Source: an uncultured Bacilli bacterium
Lineage (GTDB): Bacteria > Bacillota_I > Bacilli_A > RFN20 > CAG-449
DNA length: 48,740 nucleotides
Reading direction: 5' to 3'
Assembly: GCA_947588815.1 (NCBI GenBank)
Contig: CANQAG010000010.1
Coordinates: forward strand, 1-48,740
Position numbers and translations under genes: made by a program. Within the stretch, counting starts at the first letter, position 1, and each line of letters starts with the position of its first letter. Below the pieces are notes generated by a model, which saw nothing but the letters and a program-made list of their open reading frames with translations, was not told the DNA's origin and did no database searches. Below are positions 8,124 through 30,455 of this stretch, piece after piece.

Positions 8124-8845
8124 TTAAGACGGTGTTATTTGATTTAGACGGAACATTGCTAGGCATGAATGAAGAGAAATTTCTGGAAATTTATCTTCCG
8201 GGTCTTATCGCTTCGTTTTCTACTCCGGTGGCGTTTAAAGAAGGGGTAAACATGATCTTTAAAGCCCTCGACATGATGATCGCTAATCCTAATCCGAACG
8301 TCACTAATTACGATTCCTACAAGCGTTATTTTACGGAACTTCGTAAAGATCAAGCCGCGGCTGAAGCTGATTTTATCAATTTTGAAGCGTATTATAAAAC
8401 CGATTTTGAGATGGTAAAAAAAGCGGTGTGGGTTAAAGAAGAAATGGTAAATGCGGTCAAACTTTTAAAGGAGCGTGGCTATCGACTAGTCGTCGCCACT
8501 AATCCGGTTTTTCCGCGAATTGCGATTGAAAAGCGCATCGAGTGGGCACATCTTGATATCGCCGATTTTGAATTTGTCACTTATCAAGAAAATTCACATG
8601 CCGCTAAACCGCATTTAGAATATTATAAAGAAATTCTTGCTAAGTTGAATTTAAAAGGCGAAGAGTGCCTGATGGTCGGCAATGACGTCGAAGAAGATAT
8701 GATCGCCGCTCAATTGGGGTTGAAGACTTATCTTGTGACCGATTGCCTGATTTCACGTCACCATCACGAAAATCAAATCGCCTTAAAAGGCGATCCTCAG
8801 TCTTTTTATAATTATGTAAAGGAGCATTTCGATGATTGTCGTTAA
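8120..8845 (+). CDS. HAD-superfamily hydrolase
   Basis: Probable cytoplasmic phosphatase of the haloacid dehalogenase superfamily. Motif I is FDLDGT with the nucleophile D8 and acid/base D10. Motif II is the threonine in VVATNPVFP, and motif IV is MVGNDVEEDM near residues 193-202. A helical cap lies between motifs I and II. The start is the ATG overlapping the pheT stop (ATGA), giving 241 residues. The substrate cannot be inferred; similar proteins are annotated as HAD family hydrolases or phosphoglycolate phosphatase-like. It is translationally coupled between pheT and thyX, which says little about its role. Confidence 0.88.
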   Translation: MIKTVLFDLDGTLLGMNEEKFLEIYLPGLIASFSTPVAFKEGVNMIFKALDMMIANPNPNVTNYDSYKRYFTELRKDQAAAEADFINFEAYYKTDFEMVKKAVWVKEEMVNAVKLLKERGYRLVVATNPVFPRIAIEKRIEWAHLDIADFEFVTYQENSHAAKPHLEYYKEILAKLNLKGEECLMVGNDVEEDMIAAQLGLKTYLVTDCLISRHHHENQIALKGDPQSFYNYVKEHFDDCR

Positions 8846-9722
8846 ACCAAGTTTTGAAGAGATCGATAGTGAAGATTTATATCGCAAAGTCGAAAGATGC
8901 GGTCGGGTCTGCTACAAATCGGAAAATTTAATCACAGAAGAAAGCGCTAAAATATTTGTCAAAAAAATCTTGAACAATCATCATGGCGCGGTTTTGGAAC
9001 ATTTTTCATTTGCTTTTAAAGTCGATGAAAAACTTTATAAAGCTTTAGAAAGGGAACATTATCCATTTATCACGCTTTCTAATATTTCCTTTCCGTTAGT
9101 GTCATTTAATTTAAGGACGATAGTCGACCATTATCAAAAGGAAAAGAATAATGTGACTCTTGCTCCGTTTTATGGCTATTTAGAAAAGCGATATCCGGAT
9201 ATTTTTTGTTCTTCTCAAGGCGATAGGAGTGAAGAAGTCTATTGCCTAAGCAAAGATGAATTGATGAATCTAAAAGCGGAAGAACGCGACAAACATCTAA
9301 AAGTGACAATCAAAGTGATCACTGATCGTGGCATTTCGCATGAACTGGTGCGACATCGTCTATGTTCTTTCGCGCAAGAGTCGACTAGATATTGCAATTA
9401 TGCTAAAGATAAGTTCTCTTCGCAAATCACGGTGGTTTGTCCAATATCCATTAACGACGATGAAAAAAAGTATGCGCTTTTTGAAAAAGCAATGCAAGAG
9501 GCCGAAAAGTCGTATTTTGACTTATTGGAAGCTTCTCAATCGCCCCAAGTGGCTCGTTCGGTCTTACCGACTGCTTTAAAAACCGAGTTAGTGATGACTG
9601 CGACAGTCGAAGAGTGGCGTTTGATTTTTGATTTAAGGACTGCCGCTGCAGCCCATCCTGATTGTCGTTATTTGATGGAAATGGTCAAAGAATACTTTTT
9701 AAGGAAAGGATATATATCATGA
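8832..9722 (+). CDS. thyX: Flavin-dependent thymidylate synthase
   Basis: Makes dTMP from dUMP using FAD/NADPH and methylenetetrahydrofolate. The ThyX signature RHR-x7-S is present as RHRLCSFAQES (residues 174-184). The conserved GRVCYKS and the HHGAVLEHFSFAF segment (near 50-62) are also typical. At 296 residues it is longer than the usual 210-250; the extra length lies in a segment around residues 95-155 between the conserved blocks. AAGGAG at 8818-8823 precedes the start, which overlaps the HAD gene by 14 bases. Its presence suggests the genome may lack a classical ThyA, but that cannot be tested here. Confidence 0.96.
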   Translation: MIVVKPSFEEIDSEDLYRKVERCGRVCYKSENLITEESAKIFVKKILNNHHGAVLEHFSFAFKVDEKLYKALEREHYPFITLSNISFPLVSFNLRTIVDHYQKEKNNVTLAPFYGYLEKRYPDIFCSSQGDRSEEVYCLSKDELMNLKAEERDKHLKVTIKVITDRGISHELVRHRLCSFAQESTRYCNYAKDKFSSQITVVCPISINDDEKKYALFEKAMQEAEKSYFDLLEASQSPQVARSVLPTALKTELVMTATVEEWRLIFDLRTAAAAHPDCRYLMEMVKEYFLRKGYIS

Positions 9723-22373: not shown

Positions 22374-23813
22374 ATGAATTTATTTAATAAAATTCCTGAG
22401 AACTTCTTCTCGATTTTGTCATCAAAAAATAAGAATATCTATGGTGTCGCTTTAGTCGCATTGTATGATTGTCTGACAATATATCGCAATAAAATCCGTA
22501 AGGCTGATTACATTGATCTTTTAAAAGGACGAATCGATAAAGATTTGGAAACTTTCGATGTTTCAGTAGAGGGTGATGTCGATGACGATATCATTTTTCA
22601 ACCCACTTTACAATCAAAAATCAATCTAGTCTTTAGACGTTTGGTCGATACCGGATGGATTGTGGTAGATGTGGATTTTAAAACGGGCGTCGAGTATGTT
22701 TTGGTACCCAGTTATTCGGTAGCATTGCTTAAAATCATTTATGAATTCGTCGATTCGTCTTCGACGCGTTACGTAAGCAATGTTCATTCCACTTACATTG
22801 AATTGAAAAATGCCGATGAAGAACAACCAGAATACATGTATAAAGCATTGAATGACGCTATGGCGCGTACTAAAGATCTTTCGCTTCAAATGACGACCTT
22901 AGATCATTCAATCCGCGTGTTTCAAAATCAACTGTCGACGATTTTTACACCAAACGACGTATTGAAACAACACTTTGATATTGCTAGAGAAGATGTCTTG
23001 GATCCTTTATATCATCCGTTAAAGACTACGGATTCGATAATTCTTTACAGCGAACCGATCAATATCATCCTTAAACGCTGGATGATTACTCCAAGTGTTC
23101 TAGAAAAAATTGCCGAGCAGGCTAAGGTTGAACAACCCGAAGCAACACTAGAGGAACTTCAAAGTCAAATTATCGATAAAATAAACTATATCCGCGATAC
23201 TTATTCTCGTTTATCGCTAGAAATGAACGAAATTGATAAGACGCGTGCCGCTTACACTAAAGCGAGTGCCGAAAAAGTCATTTATTTGAATAACAGCGAC
23301 AAATCAATCAAAGGAAAGCTAGAGACGATTTTTCTTGCTGTTGCTAAAGCTGAAGCCGGTGAGCGATATGAAAAAGGGCAATCATACCCTTCAATCATTC
23401 GCGATATCACGAATTCGGTAACGCTATTCCGTCAATGTTATTTTGATGCTGATAGTTTGCAAAAACCGATTCATCGTAGCGAACGTGTCGAAACTGCGCC
23501 TTTAACGATCGAAGAAGAAGGCGAAAGCAACGATTTCTCTTCGATTATCGGTGAGGAAGACTTGATGTTTACCGACGATAAAGTTCTCGATTTTATGGAT
23601 GAGGCTTTCGGCGATAACGATAAAGTTATGGTTTCCGAACTCGATATTAAAAACATCAATGACTTTATCTATTTGATTCTCGGTACTGTTAAATCCAACG
23701 ACTATAATTCGTTTTATAGCATCGATTATCAAAAGACGATCGATCAATTTGTCAACGAAAAATTTTCGATGCCAAACTACACTTTTGAAAGAAGGGAGAC
23801 TAAGAATGTTTGA
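22374..23813 (+). CDS. jetA: JetA/MksF-like kleisin subunit of an SMC complex (Wadjet type)
   Basis: A 479-residue protein resembling the Wadjet JetA (DUF5716) family, the kleisin-like counterpart of MukF/MksF. The N-terminal winged-helix-like region begins LFNKIPENFFSILSSKNKNIYGVALVALYDCL. The middle is helical and coiled-coil rich (about 160-330), and an acidic segment (about 380-430) precedes the C-terminal domain. ATG at 22374 follows AGGAGG; an earlier in-frame ATG at 22350 was rejected because the ribosome site lies after it. It overlaps jetB by 8 bases. In studied systems this subunit bridges the JetC ATPase heads and binds the JetB dimer. Codon use matches the housekeeping genes around it. 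Fast-evolving family, so the call leans on gene order as well. Confidence 0.85.
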   Translation: MNLFNKIPENFFSILSSKNKNIYGVALVALYDCLTIYRNKIRKADYIDLLKGRIDKDLETFDVSVEGDVDDDIIFQPTLQSKINLVFRRLVDTGWIVVDVDFKTGVEYVLVPSYSVALLKIIYEFVDSSSTRYVSNVHSTYIELKNADEEQPEYMYKALNDAMARTKDLSLQMTTLDHSIRVFQNQLSTIFTPNDVLKQHFDIAREDVLDPLYHPLKTTDSIILYSEPINIILKRWMITPSVLEKIAEQAKVEQPEATLEELQSQIIDKINYIRDTYSRLSLEMNEIDKTRAAYTKASAEKVIYLNNSDKSIKGKLETIFLAVAKAEAGERYEKGQSYPSIIRDITNSVTLFRQCYFDADSLQKPIHRSERVETAPLTIEEEGESNDFSSIIGEEDLMFTDDKVLDFMDEAFGDNDKVMVSELDIKNINDFIYLILGTVKSNDYNSFYSIDYQKTIDQFVNEKFSMPNYTFERRETKNV

Positions 23814-24420
23814 AGAAACATACAACAAATTACAGGAACATGAACGTGATGATTTTGCACGAATCGTCAATGAGTTGATGCTAAAATCATTCTTACTTCG
23901 TGAAAACTATGACCGTCATAGCAAGATGATAAAATCCAATCGCGATTATTATTTTGTCGAACGCAACATCGATTTAATCCGCGAATATTTATCTTACACG
24001 GGGTGGATTATTGAAAAAGATTCCCGCCTTGGGGTAATTATGATCACCAATCAATTTCAAGATAATCGCATTCGTCTCGATTTTATGACCTCGCTTGTTA
24101 TATATTGCTTACGCTACGCTTATGAGTGCGAAAAAGAGAAAAACCAAACGGCCTCCGAAGTATATTTTAGCGCGGCTGAAGTCAATAAAATTCTTAGCGA
24201 TAAATCGCTAGTGCGAAGCGATAAGAAAATCCCACAGACTACTTTTGCCGCTTCTTATCGACTTTTGGAACAACACAATATCATCGCTAGAATTTCAGGG
24301 GAATATCGCGAGCGCAACTTGCAATTCTATATTCTTCCTTCAATTTTATATGTGATTGACAATGAAAGAATCAACAAGATCTTCGAAGACATTCAAAACT
24401 TCGAAGGCGAAGAATTTTAG
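23806..24420 (+). CDS. jetB: JetB/MksE-like KITE subunit (DUF4194 type)
   Basis: A 204-residue protein in the place and with the size of JetB/MksE (DUF4194), the tandem winged-helix subunit that bridges kleisin and SMC. Recognisable elements include LMLKSFLLRENYD near the start and RYAYECEKEKNQTASEVYFSAAEVNKIL in the middle. A further winged-helix-like segment TTFAASYRLLEQHNIIARIS is followed by FYILPSILYVID near the C-terminus. The ATG at 23806 follows GAAGGGAG, the ribosome site at about 23790-23797. It overlaps jetA by 8 bases and jetC follows after 9 bases with its own AGGAGG. No sign of damage. Confidence 0.85.
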   Translation: MFEETYNKLQEHERDDFARIVNELMLKSFLLRENYDRHSKMIKSNRDYYFVERNIDLIREYLSYTGWIIEKDSRLGVIMITNQFQDNRIRLDFMTSLVIYCLRYAYECEKEKNQTASEVYFSAAEVNKILSDKSLVRSDKKIPQTTFAASYRLLEQHNIIARISGEYRERNLQFYILPSILYVIDNERINKIFEDIQNFEGEEF

Positions 24421-24429
24421 GAGGCCAAC

Positions 24430-27400
24430 ATGAAATTATTAACTAAGATGCGCCTTATTAACTGGCATTATTTTCAAAATGTAACGATGGATTTCGGCAA
24501 AGTTAACTTTTTGACCGGTGAAAATGCTTCCGGAAAATCGACTCTTATCGATGCGATGCAAGTGGTTTTGCTTGGAGATACGACCGGAAGATCGTTTAAC
24601 AAAGCCGCTAATGAGAAATCCGGACGTACTTTAAAAAGTTACTTGCGCGGACAAACCGGGGGAGATGGAAAAGGGAGCGTCACTTATTTAAGAAGCGGTC
24701 GCTTTTCGTCTTATATCGCGATGCAGTTTCACGATGACTATGAAGACTGTGATTTCACGATGGGTATCGTCTTTGACGTCTATGACGATGGCAGTGAAGA
24801 ACACAAATTTTTCATTTTAGACAGTGAATTTCCAAGCAACAATTTCGTGGTTGACGACGTTCCGATGTCATATGAAACCCTTTTGCAATTTTTCAAAGAA
24901 AATTACGATGGACGCTTCATCTTTACGGAAACTAACGCTCAATACCAAAAATTGCTCAAAAAGAAATTCGGTAATTTGTCCGATAAATATTTTTCACTAT
25001 TTAAAAAGGCGGTCTCTTTTCAACCGATCACCAATATCGAACAATTCATCACCGATTATGTTTGCGATGTTCCAAGCGAAATCAATATCGATGTGATGCA
25101 AGAAAATATCCGTCAATACAAAAAATTGGAAATCGAAGCGGAAGCTATGCAAGTAAAAATCAAAAAACTTGAAGACATTCAAGAAGTCTACAATCAATTT
25201 GCTAGCAAAAAAGATGAATTGAATCTAGCCAGTTACATTTCTAAACGTGTGACTTATCAAATGCATCTCAATCGGATACAGACGCTGCGCGATGATATCA
25301 CCGCTTCAAAAGAACGTCTTCAAGAAATCGATCGCGAAGTTCAAGAACTTGAAAATCAAAGCAAAGAACTCAACACTTTAAAAGAACAATACATCGCTTC
25401 GAAAGTTGGAAACGGAGCTTATCAATTGACCGCCGATTTGAAAAATTCAAGGACACGGACCAAAGAGAAAATCGAACGACTTGAAGCAAGCATCAACGAC
25501 ATTCAAAAGAAATTCGGTTCCTATATCAACGAATTTAATAATTTGGCGAATAAAGTAGAAGCTTGCTTTGAAAGTCTCAAAGAAGACCAACTGACCTCAA
25601 GCATCGATTCAAAAGCGATTCTTTCTGCTTGCAAAGAGGTTAGAGATACTGCCTCCAAATTGCGACAGGTGCTTCAAACGAAAGAAAATATCGAACCGCA
25701 GGTAATCGGCGATTTCCGCGATGCGACGATCGCTTTTAAAAGTGCTTGCGGCGAATTGGCTTTCTCTTTGAAAAAAGATCTTGCGACATTGGTGCAAGAT
25801 ATCAATTATACCAAACAGCAACAAGCCAATAGCGATATCGGCGGCAAACTTTACGACTATCAATTAGTTCAAGTCCGCAACCAACTCGAAAATGCGCTTT
25901 CCAATCATTATGGTAAAAAAATCAAAGTTTACATTTACGCCGATTTGGTCGATGTCAAATCACCAAAATGGGTGAATGCTATCGAAGGTTTTATCTCTTC
26001 GCAAAAACTCAATATGTTTGTTGAAGAAGAGTATTACGATGCAGCCAATCGAATTTTACCGGAAATCATGCGCCGCAATCACTATTATCGAACTGGGCTT
26101 GTCGACAGTGAAAAATTGCATGAGCAAAATTTCATCGCGGAACGCAATTCTTTGGCCGAAGAAATTTTAACGGATCATGACGGCGCGCGTGACTACACCA
26201 ACTTCTTGATGGGTCGCATTTACAAATGCGCCGATTTGAGCGAAGCTCGCGCTAGAGGTCGTGGCATTACTCCTACCTGTGAAGGTTATCGAAATTTCTC
26301 TTCGTTTGTAATTCCCGAAAGCAATTATAAATACGCGCTTTTAGGTCGCCAGATTTCAAAAGAGAGTTTGAAGCAAACCGAAGAAGAATTGGCTTTAAAG
26401 GAACGTTTGGCTGAAACTTATCGAACGGTGATCGCGTTATTGCAAGAGGTCAATGGTCAAGACGTGATTAACAACAACGAATTGAACAGCGCGACCGCTG
26501 CTTTAAATGAGGCTGAAAGTCTTGAAGGTTTACGCCGTAACTTAAAAACTTACGAAGCGGAACTTGAAGAGTCGGGTTCTTCGGAAATTTCGGTTCTCGA
26601 CGAGAAAATCAATCGGATCAATCTCGATCTTGAAAATATCGCCAATGAGATTCAAGAATTAGTGATGCAAAAAGGTACTTTAAAAGCTACCATTCAAAAT
26701 ATCAATGACGAAAAGATTCCTTTTGAAATGAACACCGCTTCTGCTTTGCTCAAAGAACTAGAAGAAAAATTCGATCAAGAGTTTGTCAACAATGTGGCGA
26801 TGGTTACTTTCCATAACGAAGAGGAAACTGGCGATTCATTACCGCAGATAAGAGAACGTTACGATGAAATTTACATCAAAGCCCAAAATAAGATCAACAG
26901 TCTTAAGGCGGCTTTGTTTGAGTTGCGGCGTGATTATGTCCTCACTTATCGCCTCAGTTACGATGTTCAAGCCGAAAACAACGACGATTACGAACGCGAT
27001 TTAATCAACATCCGCGACGTCAAACTGCCTGAATATCAAGAAAAGATTCAAGACGCTTACGAAAAGGCTTCAAAAGAATTCAAAGATCACTTTATTCATA
27101 AACTCAACACGTCGATCAATATGGCGATTGCACGAATTGAAGAACTAAATGAAGCGATTCGCGACTCGCAATTCGGCGAAGACACCTATGAATTCCGCGT
27201 CGAACCACGCAGTGAATATCTCGATTACTACAACATGATTATGGACGATCTGCTTTTGACAAGCGGCAATGACGAAACTTATCTTGAAAAGTACAAAGAG
27301 ACGATGGATAGTCTCTTTAAAGCCATCGGCGATGTTTCCAACTCGCGCGATCAAAATGCGGTCTTGGAACAAAATGTAGCTAAATTTACCGATTATCGTT

Positions 27401-27783
27401 CTTATTTGTTATTCGACTTGCTTTCGAAAAAAGGCGATCGTGTCAATTCGTTATCATATATGATCAATCAAGCTTCAGGGGGCGAGACGCAGACTCCGTT
27501 CTATATTTCGATTTTGGCATCTTTCTCGCAACTTTATCGTATCAATGGTAGTAAGAGCACCTCTAATTGCACGCGACTTGTGATCTTCGACGAAGCTTTC
27601 TCAAAGATGGATAGCGCTAGAATTATCGAGGCGATTGCGATCCTTGAAAAGTTCGGACTTCAAGTGATTCTTTCAGCACCACCAGATAAGGTGCAACACA
27701 TCTCGAAGATCGCCGACGAAACTTTGGTCGTGACAAGAAATAACAATCGTTCTCAAGTCGGTCGCTTTGAAATCCGTGTTTAA
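24430..27783 (+). CDS. jetC: JetC/MksB-like SMC ATPase
   Basis: The motor subunit: 1117 residues with ABC-type head halves at both ends joined by long coiled coils. Walker A is GENASGKST at 30-38 (K36). The ABC signature ASGGETQ is at about 1015-1021, and Walker B LVIFDEAFSKMD lies at about 1048-1059. Coiled-coil regions (about 230-370 and 640-960) flank a central globular part (about 470-620) that would be the hinge. This is the MukB/JetC layout, shorter than Smc-type proteins by sequence style and lacking an SMC hinge motif I recognise. All ATPase motifs are intact. In known Wadjet systems JetABC extrudes DNA loops and JetD cuts; here no JetD gene follows. Confidence 0.93.
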   Translation: MKLLTKMRLINWHYFQNVTMDFGKVNFLTGENASGKSTLIDAMQVVLLGDTTGRSFNKAANEKSGRTLKSYLRGQTGGDGKGSVTYLRSGRFSSYIAMQFHDDYEDCDFTMGIVFDVYDDGSEEHKFFILDSEFPSNNFVVDDVPMSYETLLQFFKENYDGRFIFTETNAQYQKLLKKKFGNLSDKYFSLFKKAVSFQPITNIEQFITDYVCDVPSEINIDVMQENIRQYKKLEIEAEAMQVKIKKLEDIQEVYNQFASKKDELNLASYISKRVTYQMHLNRIQTLRDDITASKERLQEIDREVQELENQSKELNTLKEQYIASKVGNGAYQLTADLKNSRTRTKEKIERLEASINDIQKKFGSYINEFNNLANKVEACFESLKEDQLTSSIDSKAILSACKEVRDTASKLRQVLQTKENIEPQVIGDFRDATIAFKSACGELAFSLKKDLATLVQDINYTKQQQANSDIGGKLYDYQLVQVRNQLENALSNHYGKKIKVYIYADLVDVKSPKWVNAIEGFISSQKLNMFVEEEYYDAANRILPEIMRRNHYYRTGLVDSEKLHEQNFIAERNSLAEEILTDHDGARDYTNFLMGRIYKCADLSEARARGRGITPTCEGYRNFSSFVIPESNYKYALLGRQISKESLKQTEEELALKERLAETYRTVIALLQEVNGQDVINNNELNSATAALNEAESLEGLRRNLKTYEAELEESGSSEISVLDEKINRINLDLENIANEIQELVMQKGTLKATIQNINDEKIPFEMNTASALLKELEEKFDQEFVNNVAMVTFHNEEETGDSLPQIRERYDEIYIKAQNKINSLKAALFELRRDYVLTYRLSYDVQAENNDDYERDLINIRDVKLPEYQEKIQDAYEKASKEFKDHFIHKLNTSINMAIARIEELNEAIRDSQFGEDTYEFRVEPRSEYLDYYNMIMDDLLLTSGNDETYLEKYKETMDSLFKAIGDVSNSRDQNAVLEQNVAKFTDYRSYLLFDLLSKKGDRVNSLSYMINQASGGETQTPFYISILASFSQLYRINGSKSTSNCTRLVIFDEAFSKMDSARIIEAIAILEKFGLQVILSAPPDKVQHISKIADETLVVTRNNNRSQVGRFEIRV

Positions 27784-27795
27784 ATATTTTATATC

Positions 27796-27824
27796 TTGCA
27801 TTTATTGCTAAAAGAAAATATAAT
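27796..27824 (+). promoter_or_regulatory. Promoter of the small membrane protein gene
   Basis: TTGCAT (27796-27801) and a perfect TATAAT (27819-27824) are 17 bp apart. This separates the gene at 27851 from the jetABC operon. Confidence 0.75.
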
Positions 27825-27850: not shown

Positions 27851-28315
27851 ATGAATATGCTTCTCGGCGTTGTGTTTCCATTTGAATCACTTGATATTCT
27901 ACAAGCTTTAGTCATCATCGGCGTGATGCTGCTTCCAATTTTCTTTTCATCCTTTGTATGTCGCTTTAGAAGTTGGATCGCAGGACTTTTCAATTTTATC
28001 GCGCTTTTGGCGATTTTAAATTTCGTGCTTCATTTAGATGCACTAAAAGATTTCTTTGGTAAAACCGATGGATATATGCCGTATGTCACTTATGGTCTTA
28101 CTCTTGTAACTTATCCTATCGATGTGGTAAACACCATTATCTGCGATTTCATTAAAACTTCATTGTCATCTGTTTCCTTACCGCAGATTGTTGTCGATGT
28201 TATCAACAACGAAATCACTTACCTCTGTTTGTGGGTGATCTTGGCTCTTATCGCGTTCTTGGTCTTTAAAAAGAGACGTAAAAAGAGACACGAATTCGAC
28301 GACTACGATGAATAG
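27851..28315 (+). CDS. Hypothetical multi-pass membrane protein
   Basis: Not recognised. The 154 residues contain about four hydrophobic segments (about 16-36, 42-62, 78-100 and 122-146) and a very basic then acidic C-terminal tail (KKRRKKRHEFDDYDE), which should be cytoplasmic. Its own promoter stands in front and a terminator behind, so it is a single-gene unit. It is therefore not part of the jetABC operon, and it has no resemblance to the JetD nuclease. Confidence 0.7.
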   Translation: MNMLLGVVFPFESLDILQALVIIGVMLLPIFFSSFVCRFRSWIAGLFNFIALLAILNFVLHLDALKDFFGKTDGYMPYVTYGLTLVTYPIDVVNTIICDFIKTSLSSVSLPQIVVDVINNEITYLCLWVILALIAFLVFKKRRKKRHEFDDYDE

Positions 28316-28343
28316 AAAACTTCCTGAAAAGGAAGTTTTTTTT
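28316..28343 (+). terminator. Terminator after the small membrane protein gene
   Basis: AAAACTTCC (28317-28325) and GGAAGTTTT (28331-28339) form a perfect 9-bp stem with loop TGAAA, followed by T to 28343. Confidence 0.9.
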
Positions 28344-28400
28344 ATTCGTTTTCTTATCATAATTCTTTTTTTTGATGCACATACATTATTAGGTGATTAT

Positions 28401-29381
28401 ATGTGTACGGCAATTAGGTGGAAATGGAAAGAGCAAGCATTTTTCGGAAGAACTTTGGATAGTGCCGAAATGTTTGCGCAAAAGGTCGTGATTACGCCAC
28501 GAAATTATCAGTTTAAATTCAATTATTGCGAAATTGAAGATCGCCATCTGGCGATTATTGGAATGGCGACCGTCTACAAAAATTATCCGTTATACGCTGA
28601 AGCGGTAAACGAAAAAGGACTTTGTATCGCGGCATTAGAATTTCCGAGCAATTCGCATTATTTTCCGTTTTATCCTAGCAAAGTCAACATCACGCCATTT
28701 GAGATAATTCCGTTTATTTTGCGACAATGTCAAAATATTGCGGAAGTCAAAGAAATCATAAAAAAAACACAGTTGGTCGATAAGAGTTTCGATGAGATTG
28801 TGTTGACGGTGCCGTTACATTGGATGATTTCCGATAAGGAACAATCGATAGTCGTCGAATCGACTGAAAATGGTCTTAAGGTTTACGATGATATCTACAA
28901 CGTGATGACCAATAATCCGCCGTTTCCCTATCATCAGGAAAATATCGCCAATTATATCAATTTGACCTCGGCATATCCCTCTAATCGATTTAGCAAAGCC
29001 CTCGATTTGATGCCTTTTTCAAACGGGATGGGCGGATTAGGGCTTCCGGGAGATTTTTCTTCGCCGTCGCGGTTTGTCAAAGCGAGTTTTTTAACTTGCA
29101 ACAGTTTGCAAATCGAAAGTTACGATGAGGCGGTAGCGCAATTTTTTCACGTTCTTGACGCCGTGAGTCCGTTAAAAGGTTCAGTTAAAAATCAAAATCA
29201 AAACTGTGTCTACACCATCTATTCATGTTGCATTGATTTAAAAGAATCGATCTATTATTTTAAAACCTATTGGAACAATACTATAAACGCTGTTACTTTG
29301 GACCATGAAAATTGTGATGGGAGCGATCTTATCGTCTATCAAATCGATTTTAGACACTCATCATTTTTGTATTTAAATTAA
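28401..29381 (+). CDS. Choloylglycine hydrolase family protein (bile salt hydrolase or penicillin V acylase)
   Basis: An Ntn-hydrolase of 326 residues. The start at 28401 is set by Cys 2 (MCTAIRW), the nucleophile exposed after Met removal; the upstream extension in frame is not used and runs through the terminator. Family residues visible: GRTLD (R17, D20), TNNP (the Asn near 175) and SRF (the Arg near 225-230). GGLGLPGDFSSPSRFVKA matches the conserved block of bile salt hydrolases. One difference: the segment NEKGLCIAALEFP has Glu where bile salt hydrolases usually have Asn (GLNFP). There is no signal peptide, so it is cytoplasmic. Bile salt hydrolysis would fit a gut host, but penicillin V acylase or N-acyl-homoserine-lactone activity is possible in this family. 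Confidence 0.88.
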   Translation: MCTAIRWKWKEQAFFGRTLDSAEMFAQKVVITPRNYQFKFNYCEIEDRHLAIIGMATVYKNYPLYAEAVNEKGLCIAALEFPSNSHYFPFYPSKVNITPFEIIPFILRQCQNIAEVKEIIKKTQLVDKSFDEIVLTVPLHWMISDKEQSIVVESTENGLKVYDDIYNVMTNNPPFPYHQENIANYINLTSAYPSNRFSKALDLMPFSNGMGGLGLPGDFSSPSRFVKASFLTCNSLQIESYDEAVAQFFHVLDAVSPLKGSVKNQNQNCVYTIYSCCIDLKESIYYFKTYWNNTINAVTLDHENCDGSDLIVYQIDFRHSSFLYLN

Positions 29382-29498: not shown

Positions 29499-30455
29499 AT
29501 GAAAAACTATTCAATTGCCGGACGTACTGTTGTCCGTTATCGTAGAAAATTATTGTTTTGGCGAAATTTTGTGAGTCTTCTTTTATTTGTGTTACTAGAA
29601 GGAGCTCTTGTAGTGTTCGCTTTGTACACTTTGCAACTTGTTAATTTTGGCGAGTTGCCAAGTTTTATTCCTGCACCGCTCAATCTTCGTTTCTTTAAAG
29701 AGAGACGCCTTTATGACGGACTTATCTATGCTGGAGTCGGACTTGTCTTTTTAGGTTTGATTTGGCTTATAAGACATTTGCAATATCGATCCAGTGATCG
29801 TAAATATCGTAAACGATATCTCGAAATTTTATTTGAAGAAGCGCATCTTCACGATTTGAATCTTTTTGTAAAAAATAATCCGACCGTCAACGATTTTGAA
29901 AAAGAAGAGGCTAAAATGTTAGGTTACAATTCATTTAAGTACCTCAGTTCTTATAGTGACGCTTCAACTGACACGGTCATCGAAATGACCCAAGTTCGCT
30001 ATACTCGTAAAAATAATGGTTATGGATTGTTGATTACCACATATCTAGATCAAGCGATCAATGGATTTATGCAACTCCGTAAATGCGGTGTGCCCGGAAT
30101 TCAAGAATATCGCGATAAAGCGGTGCTTCACTTCGGGCATGAAAGCACCCAATTCTTACGTAATTGCGCGGTGTTTTCAACTTTGGAACGCGAAACTTAC
30201 AAGTTGTTGCGTAACGGACTTGAAAGCTCGGTATTCGCTTTTGGAAAATTTGTGCAATCGAACTGGATCGTCACTTACTATGACAATCGCTTGGTGATTA
30301 TGTTAGATGGGTGGCGCTTAAGATTGATGCGTCCGTTGAAATGGAAACCGCGTCCCAATGAACTTGACACCCAAGTTGAAGGTTTGAAAAAACTGCATCA
30401 ACAAGTATTCATGTTGATCGATTCGATAAAAAATTGGAATATCGGGGAGCACTAA
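29499..30455 (+). CDS. Unknown two-helix membrane protein leading the glycogen operon
   Basis: Not recognised. The 318 residues have a basic N-terminus (RTVVRYRRKLLFWR), two membrane helices (about 24-46 and 74-92), and then a roughly 220-residue cytoplasmic domain that is mixed alpha/beta and rich in Arg and Tyr (FMQLRKCGVPGIQEYRDKAV..., LVIMLDGWRLRLMRPLKWKPR). It has no motif of an enzyme that I know. It is 3 bases from glgC and shares its promoter, so it is expected to be made with the ADP-glucose pathway. It might place glycogen synthesis at the membrane, or just be co-expressed. Confidence 0.75.
   Translation: MKNYSIAGRTVVRYRRKLLFWRNFVSLLLFVLLEGALVVFALYTLQLVNFGELPSFIPAPLNLRFFKERRLYDGLIYAGVGLVFLGLIWLIRHLQYRSSDRKYRKRYLEILFEEAHLHDLNLFVKNNPTVNDFEKEEAKMLGYNSFKYLSSYSDASTDTVIEMTQVRYTRKNNGYGLLITTYLDQAINGFMQLRKCGVPGIQEYRDKAVLHFGHESTQFLRNCAVFSTLERETYKLLRNGLESSVFAFGKFVQSNWIVTYYDNRLVIMLDGWRLRLMRPLKWKPRPNELDTQVEGLKKLHQQVFMLIDSIKNWNIGEH

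Follow-up and report, generated by a model that had tools for sequence, protein, structure and literature searches.

The window analysed here is a stretch of 48,740 nucleotides on contig C10 of a 1.33-Mb assembly of 37 contigs (96.6% complete), and it carries jetA, jetB and jetC in an intact operon with ancestry in Wadjet type I. The genes of this operon and the features found immediately downstream of it are as follows, f1 denoting the family to which the window belongs.

22374..23813, + strand: jetA, mksF-like kleisin, 479 aa (Pfam JetA, 253 bits, E 4e-75; PADLOC JetA1)
23806..24420, + strand: jetB, mksE-like KITE subunit, 204 aa (DUF4194/MukE-like, E 5e-19; PADLOC JetB1)
24430..27783, + strand: jetC, mksB-like SMC ATPase, 1117 aa (PADLOC JetC1, 1058 bits)
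27796..27824, + strand: TTGCAT-17-TATAAT promoter-like box with a weak -35
27851..28315, + strand: small membrane protein, 154 aa, no Pfam family; perhaps the transcript's fourth gene, in family f1 only
28314..28341, + strand: intrinsic-terminator-like hairpin of 12 pairs with a T run, where the jetABC transcript may end

The three jet genes lie on one strand in open frames, with an overlap of 8 nt between jetA and jetB, a gap of 9 nt between jetB and jetC, and good ribosome-binding sites, that of jetA (aggagg) standing immediately 5' of the start. The ATPase motifs of JetC are intact, namely Walker A (GENASGKST) at residue 30, the signature (SGGETQ) at residue 1016 and Walker B (LVIFDEAF) at residue 1050, and PADLOC assigned JetA, JetB and JetC to Wadjet type I. 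The Pfam and PADLOC matches, the open frames and the ATPase motifs together bear out an earlier note on this DNA, which had read 22374-27783 as a complete jetABC operon. When the profile of the window JetC was compared with solved structures, JetC chains (9qxt, 8as8) scored 96-103 bits and the MukB head 31 bits. In fold comparisons against the PDB, the predicted JetB model matched JetB of Pseudomonas aeruginosa PA14 and MukE, while the best matches of the predicted JetA model were JetA/MukF chains, at a low pTM (0.49) that makes this fold match supportive only. The IFDR motif of the JetB N-terminus is the contact for JetD. The N-terminal region of JetB did not separate copies with JetD from copies lacking it, and no solved JetB could be aligned for a comparison of the IFDR motif.

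The earlier note had also assigned the gene after jetC a promoter of its own. The box is indeed present at 27796-27824, but its -35 agrees with the consensus at only 3/6 positions, it was not listed by the promoter scan, and no terminator was found in the window between jetC and the membrane-protein gene. Since the strongest terminator of the region (28314-28341) stands after the membrane-protein gene, this gene may be co-transcribed with jetABC. In family f1, 7 of the 8 loci have a membrane protein of 144-164 aa next after jetC (gap -16 to 68 nt), and no gene 3' of jetC common to all families with the nuclease-free operon was found. Further along the window, a choloylglycine (bile salt) hydrolase gene (28308-29381), two genes downstream and above the NCBIfam cut-off, fits a gut habitat, and another membrane protein (29499-30455; DUF3137-like in a relative, L098) is found near jetC throughout families f1 and f2 and in some of f4, including at loci without the glg genes described below.

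The distribution of the operon was followed through family f1 (18 genomes, 4 genera) and through the order (279 genomes, 8 families, 56 genera), in which JetC came in two kinds, a core kind sharing 33-100% identity with the window JetC and a divergent, scattered kind of 24-28% identity. JetC was present in 17 of the 18 f1 genomes, the sole miss being a 65%-complete genome, and core JetC in 97/279 genomes of the order. Outside family f4 it was found in 53/55 genomes, comprising f1 (17/18), f2 (23/23), f3 (4/4), f5 (4/4), f6 (1/1) and f8 (4/4), with f7 at 0/1 (a genome 69% complete); in f4 itself it was found in 44/224. Among the core jetC matches listed, a single one, in a 66%-complete genome, had an in-frame stop. 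About 180 of the 224 f4 genomes had neither core JetABC nor SMC, and a nearly whole-genome scan of one of them (G070, 1.21 Mb, 100% complete; L254-L318) revealed no SMC, ScpA, MukB or JetC-like protein. JetABC is thus dispensable in some relatives, and some f4 bacteria may do entirely without an SMC condensin.

The absence of a jetD gene after jetC, pointed out in the earlier note, was confirmed and extended to the rest of the assembly: the JetD_C family (PF09983) had no match anywhere in the 96.6%-complete window assembly, with Corynebacterium glutamicum as a positive control. All 31 of the 31 core loci extracted consisted of exactly jetA-jetB-jetC, never followed by jetD, which rules out a loss confined to a single strain. 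JetD_C was found in 2/18 genomes of f1 and, above cut-off, in 22 of the 279 of the order, where it stood beside a divergent JetC (24-28% identity) in 20, beside JetA fragments in one and fused to a recombinase in one. The true JetABCD loci of the order are separate, sporadic and more divergent copies only. No JetD_C was found in 83 of the 97 core-operon carriers; of the other 14, 13 had JetD beside a second, divergent jet locus (the JetA fragments in one of these) and one (G014) had the recombinase fusion. Supply of JetD in trans is accordingly ruled out for the 83, and the proposal of the earlier note that the operon might serve plasmid defence with its nuclease encoded elsewhere is contradicted as far as the Toprim nuclease is concerned. 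Nor did any second locus turn out to be of closer kinship, a case that the note had allowed for. In the fusion (L024, 343-1983, on G014:C54), a serine recombinase with Resolvase and Recombinase domains is joined in frame to the C-terminal Toprim domain of JetD, with no jetC within 1.5 kb. Five loci of genus g42 in family f4 (L106-L110) contain divergent jetABC and no jetD, in a genus devoid of the core copy, and apparently represent a separate JetD loss.

The core operon has the neighbourhood, selection and phylogeny expected of a resident gene. In f1, f2 and f4 it often lies just before glgC-glgD-glgA and after common upstream genes. In the closest pair, formed by the window and G006 of the same genus, jetABC is under strong purifying selection, with dN/dS values of 0.010 for JetC, 0.039 for JetA and 0.081 for JetB (0.020 for GlgC and 0.050 for GlgA). 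Synonymous divergence in the same pair was 0.23-0.59 in jetABC against about 0.1 in glgC and glgA nearby, an excess that recombination or relaxed codon bias may explain. In the JetC tree, the core copies of f1, f2 and f4 formed one clade of 52 rows (support 100), broadly sorted by family and with zero JetD, and the window copy did not fall inside a four-gene Wadjet clade with recent loss in one strain, the other outcome for which the earlier note had allowed. The core copies of f3, f5, f6 and f8 were placed outside this clade and nearer to Clostridia copies, so that a single clade for the whole core group is not supported. Among the nearest Clostridia relatives (named genomes of Caldicoprobacter, Fervidicola, Alicyclobacillus and others), jetD directly follows jetC in 24/26 rows. 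Across the wider tree the presence of JetD must have changed at least 7 times, so that either the nuclease-free JetABC had several origins or JetD was gained repeatedly. Three related Clostridia loci (L182, L185 and L186) contain an intact jetABC, and downstream of its jetC (about 8350-9620) a jetD in pieces in different frames; the position of the first break agrees among the three loci to about a codon, through either shared decay or programmed frameshifting.

The canonical condensin was searched for in the same genomes. ScpA was above cut-off in 0/279 genomes of the order (0/18 in f1), the control genomes being positive, and one weak match lay below cut-off (G041, 20 bits). No SMC_hinge was found outside JetC in the 279 genomes, all 8 matches being inside jetC genes. 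A hidden canonical SMC was rejected for the order on the position of these hinge matches and the sub-threshold score of the G041 ScpA match.

Taken together, these data indicate that the locus encodes a nuclease-free JetABC complex (MksFEB-type) which is probably the sole SMC-type chromosome organiser of its host, a sequence-based reading to which we assign a probability of about 0.68. The resident condensin envisaged by the earlier note is well supported by the comparison, through its fixation in the family, conserved neighbourhood and purifying selection and the lack of both Smc-ScpAB and JetD. Folding and segregation of the chromosome is its most likely job because no other SMC complex was found and because its presence is fixed and its constraint strong. 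The solved structures show JetABC and MukBEF to be SMC motors built as dimers of dimers (PMC10586767, PMC10512200), and in the current view of JetABCD a small circle is extruded to completion, whereupon JetD is activated (PMC10586767). By homology to JetABC and MukBEF, the JetA kleisin and the JetB KITE dimer would link two JetC ATPase dimers, and the assembled complex, once loaded on the chromosome, would hydrolyse ATP to extrude DNA loops. Without JetD, completed or stalled extrusion would have no cutting outcome, and it is proposed that JetABC as a consequence compacts and individualises sister chromosomes, having presumably taken over from Smc-ScpAB and filling the role of Smc-ScpAB in Bacillus subtilis or MukBEF in Escherichia coli.

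Other functions have to be weighed against this one. The complex could still be an anti-plasmid or anti-phage machine in which the place of JetD has been taken by a different effector, for example the membrane protein encoded 3' of jetC or a nuclease in trans that escaped recognition. In known systems JetABC senses DNA shape, and the membrane-protein gene comes after jetC in most f1 loci, with no terminator separating the two in the window; it is a candidate seen only in that family, however, and no gene follows jetC in all families with the nuclease-free operon. Defence loci are moreover sporadic and mobile, like the divergent JetABCD copies, whereas the window operon is fixed and syntenic, and an exchanged effector leaves the absence of SMC unexplained, all of which makes this reading unlikely. 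Slightly less probable again is a function of JetABC in holding plasmids or other foreign DNA in check through compaction or mis-segregation instead of cleavage, any role on the chromosome being secondary. Nuclease-independent silencing is conceivable for systems that act on circular DNA, but all four subunits were reported to be necessary for plasmid suppression in B. subtilis (PMC10586767), and the fixed presence and low JetC dN/dS of the operon fit housekeeping better. Decay or neutral persistence of JetABC after the loss of JetD, although the broken jetD genes beside intact jetABC in Clostridia suggest that stepwise loss may occur, is highly improbable given the single in-frame stop among the listed core jetC matches and the intact operon in every locus extracted, and is already contradicted for the window clade by the JetC dN/dS of 0.010.

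A role of JetABC as sole chromosome organiser also gains support from the pattern across the class. In an evenly drawn sample of 198 genomes, ScpA was found in 97, SMC_hinge in 97 (2 inside jetC) and JetC in 55, and JetC and SMC occurred together in only 11/198, all of families f14 and f20 (Fisher p 2e-7, kinship ignored). JetC without SMC characterises f10, f16, f26, f27 and f28, in which a JetD-free jetABC was present in every genome examined and JetD_C was absent except in G418, which has a separate JetABCD locus. Family f16 is the Acholeplasmataceae and includes Acholeplasma laidlawii and A. palmae (G364, G436), for which chromosomes have been published (PG-8 and J233, respectively; PMC4221730). 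Family f14 has kept both SMC and a JetD-free JetABC, which shows that JetD loss by itself does not mean SMC replacement. The origin of MukBEF-type condensins from Wadjet defence by nuclease loss is an open proposal (PMC10586767). It is tentatively suggested, at somewhat less than even odds, that nuclease-free Wadjet cores replaced Smc-ScpAB as sole condensin in several Bacilli families, perhaps repeatedly and including the cultivable A. laidlawii, as independent domestications of a defence machine by the path that MukBEF is proposed to have taken.

Whole families in which a nuclease-free Wadjet core is the only SMC complex found, sometimes with JetABCD in the same cell, make the step from weapon to housekeeping directly comparable, and the same pattern in cultivable A. 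laidlawii makes the question experimentally testable. Defence-system annotators that treat JetABC as Wadjet will report too much plasmid defence in these clades. Nuclease-free MksBEF beside SMC, in P. aeruginosa, and replacement of SMC by MukBEF, in enterobacteria, are already known; the literature searched, to which subscription papers mostly did not belong, contained no earlier description of SMC-free, JetABC-only Bacilli or of a whole clade in which such a complex stands alone.

The window operon resembles Wadjet type I (JetABCD/MksFEBG/EptABCD) in that JetA, JetB and JetC match the type I models in the same order and with an intact ATPase, its closest JetD-bearing relatives being the Clostridia JetABCD loci, and differs in having no JetD in cis or in trans, in being fixed and syntenic rather than sporadic, and in belonging to a host without Smc-ScpAB. 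Like P. aeruginosa MksBEF, which has been given a chromosome role in a review (PMC7485682), it encodes a three-subunit MukBEF-like complex with an intact ATPase and no nuclease. MksBEF is found beside SMC, a coexistence paralleled by f14 with its SMC and JetD-free JetABC, whereas no SMC was found in the order of the window, a case in Bacillota separate from the proteobacterial one. Enterobacterial MukBEF, the established replacement of Smc-ScpAB by a Muk/Jet-type complex (PMC10586767), shares the architecture, but its profile places the window JetC much nearer to JetC than to MukB, and it is not of MukB type by sequence. Finally, although the order of the window has no ScpA family member and no SMC hinge outside JetC, the supposed functional slot of the complex is that of Smc-ScpAB, a chromosome condensin built from a kleisin, a KITE subunit and an SMC ATPase.
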